Source: Stenotrophomonas maltophilia
GTDB lineage: Bacteria > Pseudomonadota > Gammaproteobacteria > Xanthomonadales > Xanthomonadaceae
Length of the DNA: 64,000 nt
Direction of reading: 5' to 3'
Assembly: GCF_006970445.1 (NCBI RefSeq)
Contig: NZ_CP033877.1
Location: 1,186,750-1,250,749 of the forward strand
The notes beneath the pieces are model-generated. The model was not told where the DNA came from and searched no databases. It worked only from the letters and a program-made list of their open reading frames with translations. Of this stretch, positions 7,155 to 14,977 are shown one piece after another (the stretch's first letter is position 1; every line of letters begins with the position of its first letter). The position numbers and the translations under genes are program-made.

Positions 7155-7177
7155 CGACAAACCACATGGAAGGAACC

Positions 7178-7582
7178 ATGGCCCATCCCCGCGCCCCGAT
7201 GGAGCGCCTGATCCGTGCCAATGCTGACGAGATCAACCGGCTGCAGCAGGCCATCCACGAGAGTGCCAGTGCGCGCTGGCGTGGGCCGGAGGAGCGGGAA
7301 CGGCACGCTGCGGCCTGTGCCGAGTTCCACCAGCACTACGAGCGGCTGGCGTTTCCGGGAGGCTATGCCAACGCGTTGAAACGGCTGGCCGAACACGATC
7401 CAGATACGCTGGATGTCGCGCTGACCTTTCTCGAAGTGCGGCCGTATTTCTTCCGATCCGGATATATGTGGAAGACGCTGCTGAAGCGCGTGCAACGGGT
7501 CCCCATGGGGATCAAACAGCGCGCGCGGCTGCAGAAGATCCTTGATGCCTACGCGGCTTATCGCGCCACGCGCGACGGCTGA
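7178..7582 (+). CDS. Hypothetical cytosolic helical protein
   Basis: The protein has 134 residues, no signal or membrane segment, and is rich in charged helices (AEFHQHYERLAFPGG, then LKRLAEHDPDTLDVALTFLEVRPYFFRSG). The ATG at 7178 is chosen over 7166 because GGAAGG sits six bases before it. The gene is bracketed by two hairpins of the GGGGTCAGATCCC family. I do not recognise the family. Confidence 0.72.
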   Translation: MAHPRAPMERLIRANADEINRLQQAIHESASARWRGPEERERHAAACAEFHQHYERLAFPGGYANALKRLAEHDPDTLDVALTFLEVRPYFFRSGYMWKTLLKRVQRVPMGIKQRARLQKILDAYAAYRATRDG

Positions 7583-7599
7583 TAGGGACGGCATGATGA

Positions 7600-7636
7600 G
7601 GTCAGATCCCTTTGCCTTTGGCAAAGGGATCTGACC
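7600..7636. repeat. GGGGTCAGATCCC-type hairpin
   Basis: Two perfect 17-base arms, GGTCAGATCCCTTTGCC and its complement, are separated by a 3-base loop. It lies between convergent genes. Confidence 0.85.
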
Positions 7637-7644
7637 CGGGCCCG

Positions 7645-8283
7645 TCAGGCCGCCCGCAGCGGCGGCCGCGCATGCGCACTTCGGCGCAGCGCCTGCGCCC
7701 GCTTGGCAATCCAGCGCACCACGAAGGCGGTGAACAGCAGCGCCGACGGCACCGCATACCAGAAGTTGCCCGGCACGCGCTTGAAGTACGAGTAGGTGAA
7801 CACCGCCGCGATGATCCACATGCCGGCGACGTGCAGGCGACGCCACGCGGTGGGTCCCATGCGCCGGGCGAGCCCCCGGTGCGAGGTGATGGCCAGTGCC
7901 AGGATGGCGATGTAGCCCACCGTGCCCGGGAGGTTGGCCAGCGCGGATCGTGCTGGCCAGAACGCCGGGTTGAGGATGCCGAAACTGGTGATGGCGATTG
8001 CATGCAGCAGGTGCGAGAACGCGAAGGACAGGCCGATGATGCGCCGTTCGCGCAGCAGGAAATGAGTGAAGGGGCCGGGCAGCAGGGTGGCGAAGGAGGA
8101 TGCTGTGAATGCCGCCAGGAACAGCAGGAACGATGTGCGGGCGGTGAGCCGGATCGCCGCGCGGCTGCCTTCGGCTGCATCGGGATACAGGGCGAAGGCG
8201 ATCAGTGCGAACGCGATCAGGACCACGCCGATGGCTACGAACAGGCGCCAGCCGTGCAGGAAGGACGTCTTGGATACAGTCAT
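7645..8283 (-). CDS. Ferric-reductase-like / YedZ-type haem membrane protein
   Basis: The 212-residue protein has six predicted membrane helices. Histidines sit inside or at the edge of helices (FSHLLHAIAI and RRLHVAGMW), as expected for b-haem ligands in the ferric reductase-like/MsrQ fold. The start at 8283 (MTVSKTS) is chosen because the longer frame runs back into the bufC-like gene and a repeat. It begins 2 bases after that gene's stop and is the last gene of the five-gene metallophore-type operon. It could supply electrons to metal or thiol chemistry at the membrane; this role is inferred. Confidence 0.8.
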   Translation of the reverse strand: MTVSKTSFLHGWRLFVAIGVVLIAFALIAFALYPDAAEGSRAAIRLTARTSFLLFLAAFTASSFATLLPGPFTHFLLRERRIIGLSFAFSHLLHAIAITSFGILNPAFWPARSALANLPGTVGYIAILALAITSHRGLARRMGPTAWRRLHVAGMWIIAAVFTYSYFKRVPGNFWYAVPSALLFTAFVVRWIAKRAQALRRSAHARPPLRAA

Positions 8284-8285
8284 GG

Positions 8286-9071
8286 TCAGGCCTCGAAGAA
8301 TGGAGAGGGGGTAGTGCCGGCCGCTGGCCGGCATTCCCGGGGATCGGTCGACGCAACCAGAACGCCTGCCGTGCAGAGTTCGCGCAGCACGGGAATGCAG
8401 GCCGCACGCAATGCGTCCGTTGCCACGTCATGTGTTTCGGACAGCGCCTGCAGTGCCTCATCCACCGGCGCGCCGTCGTCACCGAAGACCGAAAGCAGCG
8501 CGTAGGCCAGCGGTGACAGTTCCTCGGCCTGCAGGCTGAAATCGGCGAGGCGCTGGATCACCAGCAGCGTGGGCGCTGCGCTCGATACCGGTTCCAGCGC
8601 CTCGTCCTCATGCACCGGCCACTGGTAGCCAAGCACCCGCACCGACGGCGAAACCGCCAGCACATCACTGTCCACGGGAACACGGTGCAGCGGCCTCCCG
8701 GCGTAACGCGCTTCAATGTGCAGCGACTGCAGCGTGCTCTCGTAGTGCGCCAGTTCTGCTGCCCAGCCCGGCAGTACCAGCGCGTCCTGCACCGCCAGCC
8801 AGGTCGCGAACTCGCCGGCGATCCGTGGGAACAACGGGGTCTGGCAGGCGTGGCGGGCGTAGTAGTGCTCCACTGTGTCGCGCCAGCGCGGCGTGCCCAA
8901 CTGGTGTTGCAGTCGCGGCAGGCTGCCGGCCAGGAGGGTGTCCAGGCTGTCGATGCACAGGCGGCGGTACACCGCCAGCCTGCGCGCCTCGACGCCATCG
9001 GGTGCGGCCATTGCAGGGTCGCGCACATGATCGGCCCAGCGCCGTTGCAGGGTAGCCAGCGACTCAGCCAT
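8286..9071 (-). CDS. bufC: DUF2063 family RiPP partner protein (HvfC/BufC-like)
   Basis: The protein has 261 residues. The N-terminal ~90 residues form the helical domain once called a putative DNA-binding domain of DUF2063 ([26 protein letters not shown]). A C-terminal winged-helix-like part follows. In MNIO systems this protein is the partner that brings the precursor peptide to the DUF692 enzyme. It overlaps the end of the DUF692 gene by 8 bases, so translation is probably coupled. The last residues (CRPAAGTT) are encoded by a SMAG repeat at 8311-8333, so the tail is strain-specific. Confidence 0.88.
8311..8333 (+). repeat. SMAG hairpin inside the 3' end of the bufC-like gene
   Basis: This is a canonical copy starting GTAGTGCCGGCCGCTGGCC. 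It lies inside the coding frame of the opposite-strand gene and is read through as its C-terminal residues. Confidence 0.88.
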
Positions 9072-9909
9072 GGGCCACCTCGGGCCAACGTGCCTCGACC
9101 TGCGCCTGGCGGATCTGCGCAACCTCGGCCAGCAGCTCTGGCAGCGGCGGAAAGTTGAAGTCGCGTTCGAGCAGCGTGGGGCGCACGCCCACCCGCGCAT
9201 AGGCCTCGCGCAACAGCGCCCAGACCACGCCTTTCACCGGCGCACCGTGGGTATCGATCTTGAAGCCATCGTCTTCATCGAAGTGGCCCGCTACGTGCAG
9301 CGAGGCGACACGGTGGGACGGCACGAGGGCCAGGAATTCGAAGGCGTCGTAACCGTTGTTGCAGGCGTTGACGAAGACGTTGTTGACGTCCAGCAGCAGG
9401 TCGCAGTCGGCTTCGGCGAGCACGGCGTTGATGAAGTCGATCTCGCTCATGTCCGCGCCGGCAACGGCGTAGTAGGAGATGTTCTCCACGGCGATGCGTC
9501 GGCCGAGCATGTCCTGCACCTGGGCGATGCGACCGGCGACATGGTGTACGGCCTCGGCGGTGAACGGCAGCGGCAGCAGGTCATAGACATGGCCACCGGC
9601 GGCGCAGTAGCTCAGGTGTTCGCTGTACAGCTGCACCTGGTGCAGGTCGAGGAAGGCTCGGGTCTGTGCCAGCAGGGTGCGGTCCAGCGGATCAGGGCCG
9701 CCCAGCGACAGCGACAGGCCGTGGCAGGTCAAGGGGTGGCGCTCGCTGAGTTGGCGCAGCGCTGCGCCGTGTGCACCGCCGACGCCGATCCAGTTGTCGG
9801 GGGAGACTTCGAGGAAGTCGATGGCACCGGCCGGCATTGCCAGCAGTTCGTCGATCAGGCCACGGCGCAGGCCAAGACCGGCGGCATTGGAGGGCAGGGG
9901 CAGGGACAT
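9064..9909 (-). CDS. bufB: DUF692 / MNIO multinuclear iron oxidase (HvfB/BufB-like)
   Basis: The 281-residue protein has a TIM-barrel DUF692 fold. Expected iron ligands are visible: H63 (TCHGLS), E97-H98 (YSEHLS), E142 (ENISYY), D174 (LDVNNVFVN), H205 (SLHVAGH), D219-H221 (IDTHG) and E248 (LLERD). MNIO enzymes use two or three iron atoms and oxygen to rebuild cysteines of a precursor peptide into heterocycles that bind copper. The start at 9909 has GGAG nine bases upstream; the longer frame from 9969 overlaps the precursor gene. It lies directly after the Cys-rich precursor and before the DUF2063 partner, so the modification unit is complete. Confidence 0.93.
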
Positions 9910-9965
9910 GGCGGATGCTCCAGAGAGAGGGCGCCGCCCTGGAGGCGGCGCCGGTTGAACGTCGA

Positions 9966-10442
9966 TCAATCGGCAACGCGGGAGAACAGGCCCTTCGGCA
10001 TCGGCTTGCCGTTGGCGGTGTAGACGCTGCGCAGGTAGTCGTGTGCTTCCTGCTCGCTGATGTAACCATCGTGGTCGGTGTCGATGCGGTCGAACTCGGC
10101 GGCACGCTTGGCGGCCACAGCGTTGAACTCGGCGCGCGAGACCTTGCCGTCGTGGTCACGGTCGGTGCGGGCAAACGAGGCGTCGCCGCACTTGCCTTCG
10201 CCACACTGGCCCTCGGCCACCTTGGCCTTGCCAGCGGGCTTGCCGGTGGTGGCCTTGTTGGCCCCGCACTTGCCTTCACCGCACTTGCCTTCGGCGGCGG
10301 CGCTCATGGCCACCGCGCTGATCGCCAGCGGTTGGATCGCGGCGGCCTGGCCGGCCAGCAGCAGGCCACCGGCCAGGGCGATGCCGATGGCACCGATGCG
10401 CGGCAGGCGGGAGGAGGGGGTGTTCTTGGTCGAGACGGACAT
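9966..10442 (-). CDS. bufA: Bufferin/HvfA-like precursor with EGKCG repeats and two EF hands
   Basis: The 158-residue protein has a signal peptide (hydrophobic core ~17-35). Two Cys blocks follow, [10 protein letters not shown] (51-60) and [10 protein letters not shown] (77-86), giving Cys 54, 59, 80 and 85. Two canonical EF-hand loops end the protein, at 94-105 ([12 protein letters not shown]) and 121-132 ([12 protein letters not shown]). EGKCG repeats are the core of HvfA-type precursors whose Cys residues are modified by MNIO enzymes for copper binding. The fused EF hands suggest calcium binding as well, which is unusual for a precursor. AAGGAG lies upstream of the ATG. The gene sits between doxX and bufB. 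The modified state is inferred. Confidence 0.88.
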
Positions 10443-10538
10443 GGTGGTGACTCCTTGGGAAAGCACGCGGGGCGTGCGGGATGGACGCCGCCGAAGAGGC
10501 GACGGAAAGGGAAACGTTCGGGAACAGGGGGAAGCGGC

Positions 10539-11183
10539 TCAGGCGGTGCGGCGGCGACGCAGCAGATAGCCCAGCAGCAGCACGCCACCGAGCAGGGCGC
10601 CACCGAAGCCGATGCCGGGCAACAGCGCGGCAACCGGCAGCAGCAGGGCGATCAGGCTGACGCCCCAGCCCAGGCCGTCATTGCCGACGGGGGCATGCTG
10701 TGAGCCGGCCAGCAGCCGGTCCACGCTGAGCGCGCCACCGCCGTTGAGGATCAGTGGCAGCAGCATGGCCAGGAACAGCAGCGGCAGCTTGAAGTTGCCG
10801 TAGCCCTGGTCGGTGATCGCATAGCCCTGCCAGAGTTCACCCAGGCCGTTCCATTGGTCGGGCCAGTGCACGGCAGCGATGGCGACCACGGTCAACACCC
10901 AGAAGACGTAGGCCACTGAGCGCGTGGCCAGGCCGAGCAGCAGCATCACCGCACCCACCAGTTCCAGCCAGGTGGCAAGCTGCCAGTTCAACGACGCGGG
11001 CAGGGTGGAGAACGGGAACGGGAAGCGGCCTTCCAGGTCGGCGAACCAGTTCTGGCCGCCCAGCTTCTCGCGGCCGGATTCAAAGAACTCCCAGGCCAGC
11101 AGGGTGCGCAGCGCCAATGGCGAGAGCCAGCGGCCCACGGCGTCCAGGCGGGGGGTATACACGGAAGAGGCGGTGCTGATCAT
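10539..11183 (-). CDS. DoxX family inner-membrane protein (HvfD-like)
   Basis: The 214-residue protein has four to six membrane helices. [19 protein letters not shown] begins the DoxX domain, [16 protein letters not shown] follows in the second helix, and a C-terminal helix ends in RRRRTA. DoxX proteins accompany DUF692/DUF2063 genes in the Hvf-type operons; their role there may be redox or membrane transfer and is not established. The start at 11183 is preceded by CAGGA. It is the first gene of the operon, 96 bases before the precursor gene. Its leader holds a perfect hairpin and an inverted-repeat element. Confidence 0.88.
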
Positions 11184-11239
11184 GGTGGTGTCCTGCGGGC
11201 CAGTGGTCGATGGAGGCCATTTCAGGCGGCGCAGGTATC

Positions 11240-11258
11240 GGCAACGTGTGCCGTTGCC
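11240..11258 (-). promoter_or_regulatory. Leader hairpin of the doxX-buf operon
   Basis: GGCAACG and CGTTGCC form a perfect 7-base stem with a 5-base loop, between the candidate promoter element and the doxX start. It could be an operator or an RNA structure in the leader. Confidence 0.5.
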
Positions 11259-11273
11259 CGGGGTTTTGTCAGC

Positions 11274-11304
11274 GACTGTGGCCGCGGCGGGGTTTCGTAC
11301 AGTC
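11274..11304 (-). promoter_or_regulatory. Inverted-repeat element before doxX (ACTGT-N19-ACAGT)
   Basis: GACTGT and ACAGTC are separated by 19 bases, 91 bases upstream of the doxX start. Read on the minus strand the interior contains GAAACCCCGCC. The same half-sites with the same spacing and a similar interior lie at 11413-11441 in front of the divergent operon. This is either an operator or an ECF-type promoter (GAAACC then GTC). Confidence 0.6.
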
Positions 11305-11412
11305 AGATACAAAGACGATGCGTTGACGCACATCGGGGCGTTGCGCGCCCGCGTGCGGGGAGCGATATCCACCCGGTAGCGCCCAGCCAGGACCGGCGCC
11401 CGAATGTATCCC

Positions 11413-11441
11413 ACTGTAGAAACCCGCCTGCGCCCTACAGT
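11413..11441 (+). promoter_or_regulatory. Inverted-repeat element before the hydrolase operon (ACTGT-N19-ACAGT)
   Basis: ACTGTA and TACAGT flank GAAACCCGCCTGCGCCC. It is 84 bases before the hydrolase start and is the partner of the element at 11274-11304. The two copies point away from each other, each towards the operon it precedes. Confidence 0.6.
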
Positions 11442-11524
11442 CCGGTACAACTCTGGGCCGCGGAGAAACAGCGGTGATACACCGGCAGGCGGAAATGGCC
11501 ACTCCCAACACCGGAGTGCCACCC

Positions 11525-12319
11525 ATGATCCGTACCTCGTTGCTTGCCGCTGCTGTCGCCCTTGCCGGCGCCGCGGCCCCCGCCTTCGCCAGCCAGGCCG
11601 ATACCGCTGCACCGCCCACCGTCATCCTGGTGCACGGCGCCTTCGCCGATGGCTCCAGCTGGAGCAAGGTCATCAGTACCCTGCATGACTGGAAGCTGCC
11701 GGCGGTGGCCGTACAGAATCCGCTCACCTCGTTGGCCGACGATGTCGCCGCCACCCGTCGCGCGATTGCCGCCGCGCCCGGCAAGGTGGTGCTGGTCGGC
11801 CACAGCTGGGGTGGCACGGTCATCACCGAAGCGGGCAATGACCCGAAGGTGCAGGCGCTGGTGTACGTGGCGGCCTTCGCACCGGATGCAGGGCAGTCTT
11901 CGGCGCAACAGGGCGAAGGTTTCCCGGTCGGTCCGGGCCTGGCCCGACTGCAGGAAAGGGATGGCTACCTGACGTTGCCGGCTGATGCCATCGCCCAGGA
12001 CTTCGCGCCGGACGTGATGAAAAAATCGGCCGCACTGCTGTACAGCACGCAGGTCCCGTTGAAGGCCAGCGCGCTGGGCGAGGTGGTGAACGTTGCGGCG
12101 TGGCGCAGCAAGCCGAGCTGGTACGTGCTCAGCCGCGATGACCGCATGCTGTCGCCGCAACTGCAGGCCGCGACCGCACGTCGCATCGGTGCACAGCTGC
12201 AATCGATCGGCAGCAGCCATGTGTCGCTGCTTTCGCATCCGGCGCAGGTGGCCGACAGCATCCTGGAAGCGGCAGGGGTGAAGCCGGCGGAACTGCCGCT
12301 GGCCGAGCAGGGGGGCTGA
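11525..12319 (+). CDS. Secreted alpha/beta hydrolase
   Basis: The 264-residue protein has a signal peptide ([19 protein letters not shown]) and an alpha/beta hydrolase fold. It shows the oxyanion segment [11 protein letters not shown], the nucleophile elbow GHSWGG, the acid SRDDRML and the late histidine [10 protein letters not shown]. It matches the small esterase group often annotated as EstC- or methylesterase-like; the substrate is unknown. The start at 11525 is taken from the signal peptide. It is the first gene of an operon with the thioredoxin-like gene 3 bases downstream. It faces the metallophore operon across a 341-base gap that holds both inverted-repeat elements. Confidence 0.87.
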
Positions 12320-12322
12320 GCG

Positions 12323-12868
12323 ATGGCCGCACTGCGAGGGTACGCATTGCCGCTGTTGCTGGGGCTGCTGGGCGGAGCGGCGTTGCTGCTGGCATGGCCC
12401 GGTGCGGATGCCGGCGCGCAGCCGCTCGATGCCGCACCGATGGCGGGGTTCGACGGTGGCGGGCCCTGGCACAACAGCCCACCGCTCACACTGAAGCAGT
12501 TACAGGGGCAGGTGGTGCTGGTCGAGTTCTGGACCTACACCTGCAGCAACTGCCTCAACGTGGCGCCCTATGTCCACCAGTGGCATGCGCGATACGCGTC
12601 GCAGGGCCTGAGGGTGATCGGCGTGCATACGCCGGAATTCGCCTATGAAGGGCTGCCCGGCAACGTGCGCAAGGCCATCGCACGGTTGGATATCACCTGG
12701 CCGGTGGTGCAGGACAACCAGTACCGGATCTGGAACGCCTGGGGCAACCGCTTCTGGCCCGCGCTGTACCTGCTCGACCGGCAGGGGCGGGTGGTCTACC
12801 GCCATTACGGCGAGGGCGACTACGCACGTACCGAAAGCGAGATCCAGCGCCTGCTGGCCAGCCCCTGA
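12323..12868 (+). CDS. Membrane-anchored thioredoxin-like protein (TlpA/DipZ type)
   Basis: The 181-residue protein has an uncleaved-looking N-terminal helix (~8-25) and then a periplasmic thioredoxin fold. The active site is CSNC at 74-77 in VEFWTYTCSNCLN, which matches the redoxin domain of DipZ-like proteins rather than DsbA. A cis-proline is likely in FWPALYLLD. It starts 3 bases after the hydrolase stop, so the two are cotranscribed. It probably handles thiol redox outside the membrane; a link to cysteines of the divergently encoded metallophore precursor is possible but unproven. Confidence 0.87.
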   Translation: MAALRGYALPLLLGLLGGAALLLAWPGADAGAQPLDAAPMAGFDGGGPWHNSPPLTLKQLQGQVVLVEFWTYTCSNCLNVAPYVHQWHARYASQGLRVIGVHTPEFAYEGLPGNVRKAIARLDITWPVVQDNQYRIWNAWGNRFWPALYLLDRQGRVVYRHYGEGDYARTESEIQRLLASP

Positions 12869-12926
12869 GCCGCGCTACCATGGCCGCGCCGCGCGGCGCT
12901 GTCCCCCTGCCTTCATCGAGAACGCA

Positions 12927-13667
12927 ATGAACCATGTACCGCACATCCTGGTCGTCGACGATGACAGCGAGATTCGCCAGATGCTGGCCGACTACCTGCA
13001 ACGCAACGGCCTGCGCGTGAGCCAGGCCGACGGTGGCCGGGCCATGCGCGCGCTGATGGATACCCATGCCGTGGATCTGGTGGTGCTGGACGTGATGATG
13101 CCGGGCGAGGACGGCCTGAGCCTGTGCCGCAACCTGCGCGCCGGCAAGCATCGTGCGGTGCCGGTGGTGCTGCTGACCGCCCGCGACGACGAGACCGACC
13201 GCATCATCGGCCTGGAAATGGGCGCTGACGACTACGTGACCAAGCCCTTCTCTTCGCGCGAACTGCTGGCACGCATCAATGCGGTGATCCGCCGCACCCG
13301 GATGCTGCCGCCGAATCTGCAGGTGAGCGAAGCAGGTCGCCAGCTGGCCTTCGGCGAGTGGCGCCTGGACACCACCGCACGCCACCTGCTGGATGCGCAG
13401 GACACCGCGTATCCGCTCAGTGGCGCCGAGTTCCGCCTGCTTCGCGTGTTCCTCGATCACGCCAATCGGGTGCTCAGCCGCGACCAGTTGCTCAGCCTCA
13501 CCCAGGGCCGCGATGCCGAACTGTTCGATCGCTCGATCGACCTGCTGGTCAGCCGCGTGCGGCAGCGCCTGGGTGACGACGCACGCGAGCCGACCTACAT
13601 CAAGACCGTGCGCAGCGAAGGCTATGTGTTCAGCGTGCCGGTGCAGTTGCTGGGACCGGACGAATGA
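12927..13667 (+). CDS. OmpR-family response regulator
   Basis: The 246-residue protein has a receiver domain (1-120) with acidic residues D11-D13, the phosphorylation site D55 in VVLDVMMPG and the conserved lysine in DDYVTKPFSSREL. An OmpR/PhoB winged helix (~150-240) follows, with RDQLLSLTQGRDAELFDRSI and a wing at KTVRSEGYVFS. It overlaps the sensor kinase by 4 bases. It follows the thioredoxin-like gene by 58 bases and may be read partly from the same promoter. The target genes are unknown, but the neighbouring operons are candidates. Confidence 0.94.
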   Translation: MNHVPHILVVDDDSEIRQMLADYLQRNGLRVSQADGGRAMRALMDTHAVDLVVLDVMMPGEDGLSLCRNLRAGKHRAVPVVLLTARDDETDRIIGLEMGADDYVTKPFSSRELLARINAVIRRTRMLPPNLQVSEAGRQLAFGEWRLDTTARHLLDAQDTAYPLSGAEFRLLRVFLDHANRVLSRDQLLSLTQGRDAELFDRSIDLLVSRVRQRLGDDAREPTYIKTVRSEGYVFSVPVQLLGPDE

Positions 13668-14977
13668 ACACCACCGCACGCCGTCCACGCTGGCCGCGCA
13701 CGCTGTCGGCGCGGCTGCTGCTGGTGTTGCTGGGCGGACTGGCCCTGGCCCACGCACTGTCCTTCGGCCTGCTGTTCTTCGAACGCTACCAGTCCACCCG
13801 CAGCATGATGCTGCGCAACCTCGATGAAGACGTGGCCGTGAGTGTCGCGCTGCTGGAGCACCTGCCCGAGGACCAGCGCGATGCCTGGGTGCCGCGGCTG
13901 GAGCGGCGCACCTACCGTTACCTGCTGCGCCCCGCCGCGGCCGGACCAGGGCTGCAGACCGATCGTGCACGCCAGGTCACGGCGATCATCGACGACAGCC
14001 TGCAGCACCGCTATCCGTTGCAGGCGCGCCAGGTGGCTCGCCTGCCGGAGCGGTTCGAGGTGGAACTGCGCCTGCACGACGGCACACCCTTGACCATTGA
14101 AGTCACTCCGTCGGGCCTGCCGCTGGCACGTTGGCTGCCCGCCGTGCTGCTGGTGCAGCTGGCGCTGCTGCTGGTGTGCGCGTGGTTGGCGGTGCGCCTG
14201 GCCATGCGCCCGCTGCAGCAGCTGTCGCATGCGGTGGAGCATCTGCAGCCGGGCAAGGACGGGTCTGCACTGCCTGAAGACGGCCCTGCGGAAGTGGGCG
14301 GCGCGGCGGCCGCACTCAATGCACTGCAGGCACGCATTCGTGGCCATGTCAGTGAGCGCCTGCAGATCCTGGCCGCGATCTCGCACGACCTGCAGACCCC
14401 CATCACGCGCATGAAGCTCCGGGTGGAGACCCTGCCTGAAGACAGCACCCAGCAGCGGCTGCTGGCCGACCTCGACCACCTGGGTCAACTGGTGCGTGAG
14501 GGCGTGGCCTATGCGCGCAGCAGCCACGTCGCCAGTGGCGCGCCGGTGTCGATGGACCTGGGCGCGTTCCTGGCCAGTGTGGTCGGCGATTACGAGGACA
14601 TGGGCAAGCCGGTCAGTGGTGGTGCGCCCGCTGGACTGGTCGTGCAGACCTGGCCGCAGCCGCTGCGCCGGGTGGTCGGTAATCTGGTCGACAACGCGTT
14701 GCGCTACGCCGGTGCCGCCGAGATCGAGGCGGGCCGCGATGAGGCCGGAAGGGTGTGGATCGGAATTTCCGACCGTGGCCCCGGCATTCCCGAGGGCCAG
14801 CTGCAGGCGGTGCTGGCGCCGTTCCACCGGCTGGAAAGCTCGCGCAATCGCGATACCGGCGGAACCGGCCTGGGCCTGGCCATCGCGGTGCAGCTGGCGC
14901 AGTCGCTGGGCGGCTCGCTGCGGTTGCACAACCGCGAGGGGGGCGGCTTGCGGGCGGAGCTGCAGCTGCCGGGGTAA
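13664..14977 (+). CDS. Sensor histidine kinase, EnvZ/RstB-like
   Basis: The 437-residue kinase has two membrane helices (~16-38 and ~160-180) around a periplasmic sensor of about 120 residues, then a HAMP linker. The phosphoacceptor H241 lies in ISHDLQTPITRM. The ATP domain shows the N box VGNLVDNALRYA, the G1 box ISDRGPGIP and the G2 box GGTGLGLAIA. It overlaps the regulator gene by 4 bases and is its cognate partner. The signal sensed is unknown. Confidence 0.94.
   Translation: MNTTARRPRWPRTLSARLLLVLLGGLALAHALSFGLLFFERYQSTRSMMLRNLDEDVAVSVALLEHLPEDQRDAWVPRLERRTYRYLLRPAAAGPGLQTDRARQVTAIIDDSLQHRYPLQARQVARLPERFEVELRLHDGTPLTIEVTPSGLPLARWLPAVLLVQLALLLVCAWLAVRLAMRPLQQLSHAVEHLQPGKDGSALPEDGPAEVGGAAAALNALQARIRGHVSERLQILAAISHDLQTPITRMKLRVETLPEDSTQQRLLADLDHLGQLVREGVAYARSSHVASGAPVSMDLGAFLASVVGDYEDMGKPVSGGAPAGLVVQTWPQPLRRVVGNLVDNALRYAGAAEIEAGRDEAGRVWIGISDRGPGIPEGQLQAVLAPFHRLESSRNRDTGGTGLGLAIAVQLAQSLGGSLRLHNREGGGLRAELQLPG

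Follow-up and report, generated by a model that had tools for sequence, protein, structure and literature searches.

EF-hand proteins with EGKCG repeats have been described from two directions. Two EF-hand_5 domains behind a short Buf_EGKCG domain were described as a class in a survey that cites EfhP of Pseudomonas aeruginosa as an example and that mentions a few clusters with ferric-reductase genes (Leprevost et al., 2025, PMC12452194). A paper of 2014 on EfhP already noted its DUF692 and DUF2063 neighbours (PMC4053335), and its four EGKCG repeats were remarked on (PMC11559002). The EGKCG modification is now assigned as a 5-thiooxazole and not as an oxazolone or thioamide (PMC12668002, PMC13419390); FonA loses 8 Da for two repeats (PMC12668002), that is about 4 Da per Cys. 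In P. aeruginosa, PA4101-PA4107 comprise bfmRS, ferric-reductase-like, DoxX-like, DUF 2063 and DUF 692 genes and efhP, and the adjacency of bfmRS to the DUF 692 and DUF 2063 genes is thus already printed (PMC4918941, legend of Fig. 6). BfmR is a direct, DNA-binding activator of P. aeruginosa promoters (PMC4148453, PMC8025907); its top targets are bfmRS, PA4103-04 and PA4107-05, and efhP, activated 11,268-fold, is the strongest gene (PMC8025907). In this study, we analysed a 64,000-nucleotide stretch of Stenotrophomonas maltophilia DNA (contig NZ_CP033877.1, positions 1,186,750 to 1,250,749; hereafter the window), which carries a minus-strand operon encoding an EF-hand EGKCG precursor together with HvfB- and HvfC-type proteins.

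We consider it likely that this locus is the Stenotrophomonas counterpart of P. aeruginosa bfmRS-efhP, a regulated EF-hand captophorin module. The reading rests on computation, namely gene content, conservation, co-occurrence, box conservation and orthology of the regulator pair. The operon consists of the following genes:

10539..11183, minus strand: doxX / hvfX, operon gene 1, 214 amino acids (PF07681, 68.7 bits; HvfX model NF050144, 133.2, cut-off 80)
9966..10442 (stop included), minus strand: precursor, 158 amino acids (NF050137 and EF-hand models over cut-off)
9064..9909, minus strand: MNIO enzyme of HvfB type, 281 amino acids (NF003818, 409.7, cut-off 360; PF05114, 339.7; solved relative 3bww)
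8286..9071, minus strand: HvfC / DUF2063 partner with NGO1945-type C-terminal domain, 261 amino acids (NF050145, 182.5, cut-off 142; PF09836, PF22106)
7645..8283, minus strand: Ferric_reduct-family membrane protein (the fifth gene), 212 amino acids, with His91, His94 and His151 (PF01794, 33.0, cut-off 28)

An initial annotation of this DNA had proposed a complete five-gene operon of the Hvf type at 7645..11183. Coordinates, family models and the open frames, which are intact for all five genes, agree with this layout, and the NF050137, HvfB, HvfC and HvfX models all score above their curated cut-offs. As judged by these models, the gene set is of captophorin / Hvf type and forms one minus-strand operon. 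The word complete holds for the presence of the five genes and understates the locus, since the regulator pair, and perhaps a thioredoxin-like gene, belong with the operon. The doxX gene is separated from the precursor gene by 96 bp and the latter from the MNIO gene by 56 bp; the MNIO gene runs 8 bp into the DUF2063 gene, and just 2 bp separate the DUF2063 stop from the fifth gene. Among 20 Stenotrophomonas orthologues (19 sequences for doxX, with L160 left out), the median pairwise ratio of non-synonymous to synonymous substitution rates (dN/dS) was 0.113 for MNIO, 0.135 for doxX, 0.136 for the precursor, 0.167 for the fifth gene and 0.320 for DUF2063. All five values are far under 1, and for the precursor the low ratio, together with the invariant Cys blocks, argues against a product of chance.

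The precursor scores 35.2 bits with NF050137 (KCGExKCG_twice, cut-off 19.5) and 38.6 with EF-hand_1 (cut-off 25.4), and its N terminus, judged by eye, is signal-peptide-like. It does not reach the HvfA equivalog NF050188 (32 bits vs cut-off 95). By these scores and its domain order, the precursor is itself not a Haemophilus-type HvfA and is a member of the Buf_EGKCG|EF-hand_5 (EfhP-like) class. Four Cys lie in two ten-residue blocks, residues 51-60 and 77-86, and are followed by EF loops at residues 94-105 and 121-132; reading of the loops and the EF-hand score bear out the two canonical EF hands that had been noticed behind the Cys blocks. Novelty of this fusion had to be rejected, since the class is described in PMC12452194 and its P. 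aeruginosa member EfhP in PMC4053335. One of the four pentamers is EGQCG, the others EGKCG. FonBC accepts Ala, Arg and Thr at the Lys position of EGKCG and rejects Phe and Glu (PMC12668002), and because of this tolerance EGQCG is probably acceptable to the modifying enzymes.

Directly after the second Cys block, DASFARTD runs into EF loop 1, and in an alignment of 20 precursor homologues the lettered positions of EGxCGEGxCGDAxFxxTD are invariant, so that those 20 homologues all have the last Cys pair right next to the EF hand, at a constant distance. The Cys blocks are also invariant in 20 of 20 Stenotrophomonas orthologues, one of which (L166) has one additional EGKCG; the spacer between the blocks varies, and substitutions in the EF loops keep the canonical residues and pattern. 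Cys number differs among relatives. The best matches of the window precursor include P. aeruginosa proteins at about 60% identity. In an AlphaFold2 model the EF-hand pair is confident and the predicted local distance difference test score (pLDDT) is below 50 across residues 20-90; the Cys region is likewise poorly modelled across the class (PMC12452194).

The operon shares its upstream intergenic region with a divergent transcript. The candidate boxes and the divergent genes are:

11298..11312, minus strand: candidate BfmR-like box, core TGTATCTGACTGTA (pattern match)
11404..11418, plus strand: candidate BfmR-like box, core TGTATCCCACTGTA (pattern match)
11436..11450, minus strand: candidate BfmR-like box, core TGTACCGGACTGTA (pattern match)
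11525..12319, plus strand: alpha/beta hydrolase, divergent neighbour (PF12697, 79.3 bits)
12323..12868, plus strand: ResA/TlpA-like thioredoxin-fold protein with TCSNC motif (PF08534, 51.9 bits; ResA model NF002854, 58.5, under the cut-off of 170)
12927..13667, plus strand: OmpR-family response regulator, BfmR-type (PF00072, PF00486)
13664..14977, plus strand: sensor histidine kinase, BfmS-type (PF00672, PF00512, PF02518)

The Hvf set does not stand alone: a BfmRS-type two-component system and candidate boxes adjoin the operon. The regulator of Pseudomonas delhiensis (L047) finds its best match in this genome in the window regulator (73% identity, 399 vs 246 bits for the next), and the P. delhiensis kinase in the window kinase (54% over nearly the full length, 460 vs 229 bits). 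By this comparison, made via the P. delhiensis proteins, the window pair is orthologous to the regulator pair beside the Pseudomonas locus. A role of the hydrolase in the module is doubtful. Homologues of the ResA/TlpA-like gene, which lies between hydrolase and regulator, also occur at L058, L091 and L095.

Three copies of TGTAYC-N3-CTGTA lie upstream of doxX, in the region common to both transcripts. In this genome (4.55 Mb), to which the count is confined, the pattern TGTAYCNNACTGTA has three matches, all at this site, and the reversed control has 0. The reverse complement of the box, TACAG-N3-GRTACA, resembles the BfmR motif of P. aeruginosa, TACAA-N3-GATACA (PMC8025907), with G instead of A at position five and GGTACA in one of the three copies. 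With a looser pattern, TGTAYC-N3-YTGTA, 19 of 20 Stenotrophomonas loci have sites; all 54 of these lie between doxX and the divergent gene, and there are 0 elsewhere in about 173 kb. The three boxes of L160 were counted as intergenic after allowing for a gap in its doxX, and their mutual spacing is the same as in the other loci; L160 was left out of the upstream alignment. Other genera were covered by 72 named loci. Ten of these have a site within 400 bp upstream of a precursor match (10 sites, 28.8 kb searched), and four sites lie elsewhere (808 kb), three of these 103-129 bp ahead of the aligned start of a fifth-gene homologue. The PA4103 promoter, which is bound by BfmR in P. aeruginosa (PMC4148453), is the same kind of promoter as these sites upstream of the fifth gene. 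A BfmR-like box also stands upstream at L052, L053 and L075, Pseudomonas loci without a flanking MNIO gene.

Co-occurrence was assessed in 61 genus-level genomes, an even sample of a larger group; all belong to a single genus, and the counts are not independent events. Precursor orthologues (E <= 3e-73) were found in 20 of 61, a number that covers orthologues and not every EF-hand precursor, the MNIO loci of the other genomes having been read in part. The same 20 genomes have the fifth gene (E <= 1.6e-102) and also the kinase (at least 637 bits, with 28 kinase candidates scored per genome), lying together with the precursor. Kinase matches of 511-541 bits occurred in three further genomes (G002, G015, G042), where there was no precursor orthologue. 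MNIO genes were found in 51 of the 61 genomes; 19 of the 20 operon carriers have two MNIO loci, G003 has one, and no other genome has two.

Beyond the genus, 80 named loci were drawn by precursor similarity, with flanks of up to 6 kb, some ended by contig ends, so that absences are upper bounds. Profiles made from this operon served for scoring; regulator and kinase matches had to reach 330 bits, and EF hands were recognised by a regular expression. An EF-hand precursor with MNIO was present in 43 loci, and of these DoxX in 22, the regulator pair in 15 and the fifth gene in 10. In all ten loci that carry the fifth gene, DoxX, MNIO and the regulator pair are present as well, and three gene orders occur. 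DoxX and the regulator pair stand beside the precursor in Stenotrophomonas, Pseudomonas, Rheinheimera, Lysobacter and Steroidobacter, with the fifth gene in the first three. Among loci scored without EF hands, four have MNIO and DoxX with no fifth gene or regulator pair, and three have no partner. All 29 genomes searched for MNIO genes have them; 23 of these genomes house loci without a flanking MNIO gene (EF-less L093 and L110 included).

The fifth gene is the sole PF01794 match in the genome. An alignment of 107 of its 117 homologues, those 180-270 residues long, has three near-invariant His (His91, His94, His151), and because of these it is plausible that the protein can bind haem. Its structural model is nearest to STEAP metalloreductases, as a weak match. 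PDB sequence searches with P0004 and with alignment A2 gave 0 matches each. A search of 369 genomes across the class, with at most 8 candidates scored per genome, gave matches in five: close copies in G000 and G006, distant copies of 128-130 bits in G220 and G376 with no MNIO, DUF2063 or DoxX within 1.5 kb, and MsrQ-like 36-bit matches in G079 and G220. Of the genomes that house 30 of the 80 loci, 13 have a close fifth gene and one has a weak match; DoxX lies within 1.5 kb for 12 of the 17 fifth-gene matches there and is absent for three strong and two weak ones.

From these observations we infer Cys modification, metal binding, regulation in Stenotrophomonas, haem and electron transfer. By homology to measured systems, it is most likely that the regulator pair senses and switches, that HvfBC modify the precursor and that the product holds copper and calcium. 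The kinase would sense an envelope signal, whereupon the regulator would bind the three boxes, switch on the doxX-precursor-MNIO-DUF2063-Ferric_reduct genes and probably activate its own divergent transcript too. HvfC would hold the precursor and HvfB would turn the Cys of both blocks into 5-thiooxazoles ahead of Sec export, to give a periplasmic product that would carry a soft metal, copper, on its rings and calcium on its EF hands. The fifth-gene protein and DoxX might form a haem-b membrane electron conduit, perhaps with the ResA-like protein (12323-12868), that would most likely reduce Cu(II) to Cu(I) or keep thiol groups on the periplasmic face reduced. The electron-transfer role of the fifth gene is the weakest step and is speculative, being somewhat improbable in our estimate. 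Because EfhP-like members keep the last Cys pair at a constant distance from EF hand 1, a possible mutual influence of Ca2+ and copper is worth testing.

Several observations weigh against a module of this kind. The box pattern was chosen and tuned after these sites were seen, which leaves the boxes as candidates, and the exact box is absent from L167. The orthologous operon is missing from 41 of the 61 genomes, among them G024, which has a different EF-hand precursor beside MNIO. Co-occurrence in 20 of 20 carriers within one genus may also reflect one inherited block, that is a single gain or loss. One copy, L160 (= L045, genome G008, S. maltophilia EA1), is damaged, its doxX having a gap of about 283 bp relative to the other copies. 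Absence in related strains with decay of this copy, which had been raised at the outset as a refuting sign, gives a divided picture: the operon is often absent, yet in 19 of 20 copies all five genes are open. In L160 itself, the four remaining genes stay open and the BfmR-like boxes are retained despite the gap.

Across the 43 loci with an EF-hand precursor and MNIO, the fifth gene is missing from 33 and the regulator pair from 28, within flanks of up to 6 kb, from which it follows that neither is needed for core function; the idea that EF-hand precursors strictly need the fifth gene was accordingly rejected. In 30 of the 80 loci, all Pseudomonas, an EF-hand EGKCG protein has no MNIO or other partner in its flanks, and the fused protein may therefore also work apart from the operon. 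Foldseek returned no match at E <= 0.001 for the fifth-gene model. Finally, EfhP has been published as a Ca2+ and iron-uptake factor, and its EGKCG repeats were proposed to serve iron sensing, not copper (PMC11559002).

A simpler view of the locus would be that of a plain EF-hand captophorin for copper buffering, with the regulator pair and the fifth gene as neighbours without common function. The class has already been described with core precursor-MNIO-DUF2063-DoxX genes (PMC12452194), and 21 of the 43 loci with EF hands and MNIO lack all of DoxX, the fifth gene and the regulator pair in their flanks. However, the recurrence of DoxX and the regulator pair beside the precursor in five genera, and of the fifth gene in three, in varied gene orders, argues against unrelated neighbours, as does the direct binding and activation of the P. 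aeruginosa promoters by BfmR (PMC4148453, PMC8025907), and we regard this view as quite unlikely. Somewhat more weight, though still on the unlikely side, goes to a protein that is a calcium sensor first: Ca2+ on the EF hands would act as the signal and the modified Cys as an anchor or redox switch that depends on metal, and the output would be signalling towards iron uptake and virulence, a role proposed for EfhP. The P. aeruginosa protein does bind Ca2+, and deleting it changes Ca2+-dependent iron-uptake genes (PMC9132961, PMC11559002), and the EF-loop substitutions in the 20 orthologues leave the canonical pattern whole. If the EF hands alone mattered, however, the MNIO pair directly downstream and the Cys blocks invariant in 20 of 20 would be hard to explain.

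For the fifth gene on its own, a function as an MsrQ-type haem subunit in methionine sulfoxide repair was considered. The MsrQ family has three haem His. MsrQ tops the NCBIfam matches of the fifth gene, the length is similar and several homologues are annotated as YedZ or MsrQ-like. However, its 31.7 bits with NF003831 fall far short of the cut-off (130), the third His of MsrQ is missing, and an additional His is near-invariant. The neighbours at 7166-14977 include no MsrP-like gene, although no genome-wide MsrP search was made. The identity as MsrQ was rejected, and a methionine sulfoxide repair function appears very improbable.

Several further loci widen the picture. Of the 30 Pseudomonas loci without partners, which lie within L052-L089 (e.g., L060), 15 have just two EGKCG-type motifs. 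Two loci of G024 (L023 and L040) carry a divergent precursor ordered as EGKCG pair, two EF hands and EGKCG pair, adjoining MNIO and DUF2063, and in Lysobacter prati (L092, 5548-8707) two EF-hand EGKCG precursors flank a single MNIO-DUF2063 pair. A tblastn search of 72,556 plasmid records at E 1e-5 gave no match to the precursor. Relatives of precursor and fifth gene were found in Myxococcota, in Cystobacter fuscus (P0017 and P0159; precursor 54% identity, fifth gene 78% over 59% of its length) and Archangium lansingense (P0135), which suggests transfer of the module between phyla; C. fuscus appears to carry both genes. The same S. maltophilia genome has a second MNIO locus, L001 (G000:C1:1490193-1493975), whose frames were read as a 117-amino-acid EGKCG-only precursor, MNIO, a DUF2063-type and a DoxX-type gene; it has no EF hands and no exact BfmR-like box, and by eye it adjoins a PhoU-like gene. 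An EGKCG-MNIO-DUF2063-DoxX set of proteobacterial type also occurs in a record titled Bacillus subtilis (L121), where our guess is contamination or mislabelling.

By this comparison, the strongest BfmR target, efhP, and its neighbours would make up a complete pathway for a metallophore of the ribosomally synthesized and post-translationally modified peptide (RiPP) type, plus a haem-type protein. If the BfmRS and MNIO literatures are joined, the core BfmR regulon would gain a concrete function, the signal of BfmS a candidate class (envelope copper, calcium or redox state), and the gating of copper binding by calcium in a modified protein a test. It is tempting to speculate, tentatively and with less than even expectation, that BfmRS, known as a virulence switch, originally serves to control an EF-hand captophorin as its dedicated regulator, the captophorin being a sensor and store in which one secreted modified protein couples calcium with copper, aided by a STEAP-like single-haem reductase supplying Cu(I), the wide P. 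aeruginosa regulon being a later extension of a metal-homeostasis switch.

Compared with the known systems, the Stenotrophomonas locus stands closest to PA4101-PA4107, with which it shares the same seven gene kinds and a precursor of about 60% identity. In Stenotrophomonas, one operon holds the precursor genes with DoxX on one side and Ferric_reduct on the other, and the regulator pair belongs to the divergent transcript, where it follows the hydrolase and the thioredoxin-like gene; P. aeruginosa, by contrast, has PA4103-04 and PA4107-06-05 as two distinct operons (PMC4148453). At L047, L050, L055, L094, L103 and L105, one strand carries regulator, kinase, fifth gene and DoxX, which converge with precursor-MNIO-DUF2063. 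With the Buf_EGKCG|EF-hand_5 class, the locus shares the EGKCG domain after an N-terminal hydrophobic helix, the two EF hands and the core genes; the main text of PMC12452194 contains no mention of a two-component system, response regulator, histidine kinase or BfmR. HvfA/oxazolin, fontiphorin and gonophorin (captophorins) share the EGKCG repeats and the HvfB- and HvfC-type genes, with HvfX in the hvf operon, and the L001 set is of the same plain EGKCG type; EF-hands are not mentioned in the available text of PMC12668002 or PMC13419390. For these captophorins the product chemistry has been measured, whereas that of the Stenotrophomonas precursor is predicted. Human STEAP metalloreductases have a weak resemblance to the structural model of the fifth gene. 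A link of BfmRS with an MNIO/RiPP reading was not found in the literature searched, outside of which most subscription journals fell. What appears new here, as read from the genes, is an MNIO peptide operon linked to a BfmRS-type system and to a probable single-haem protein.

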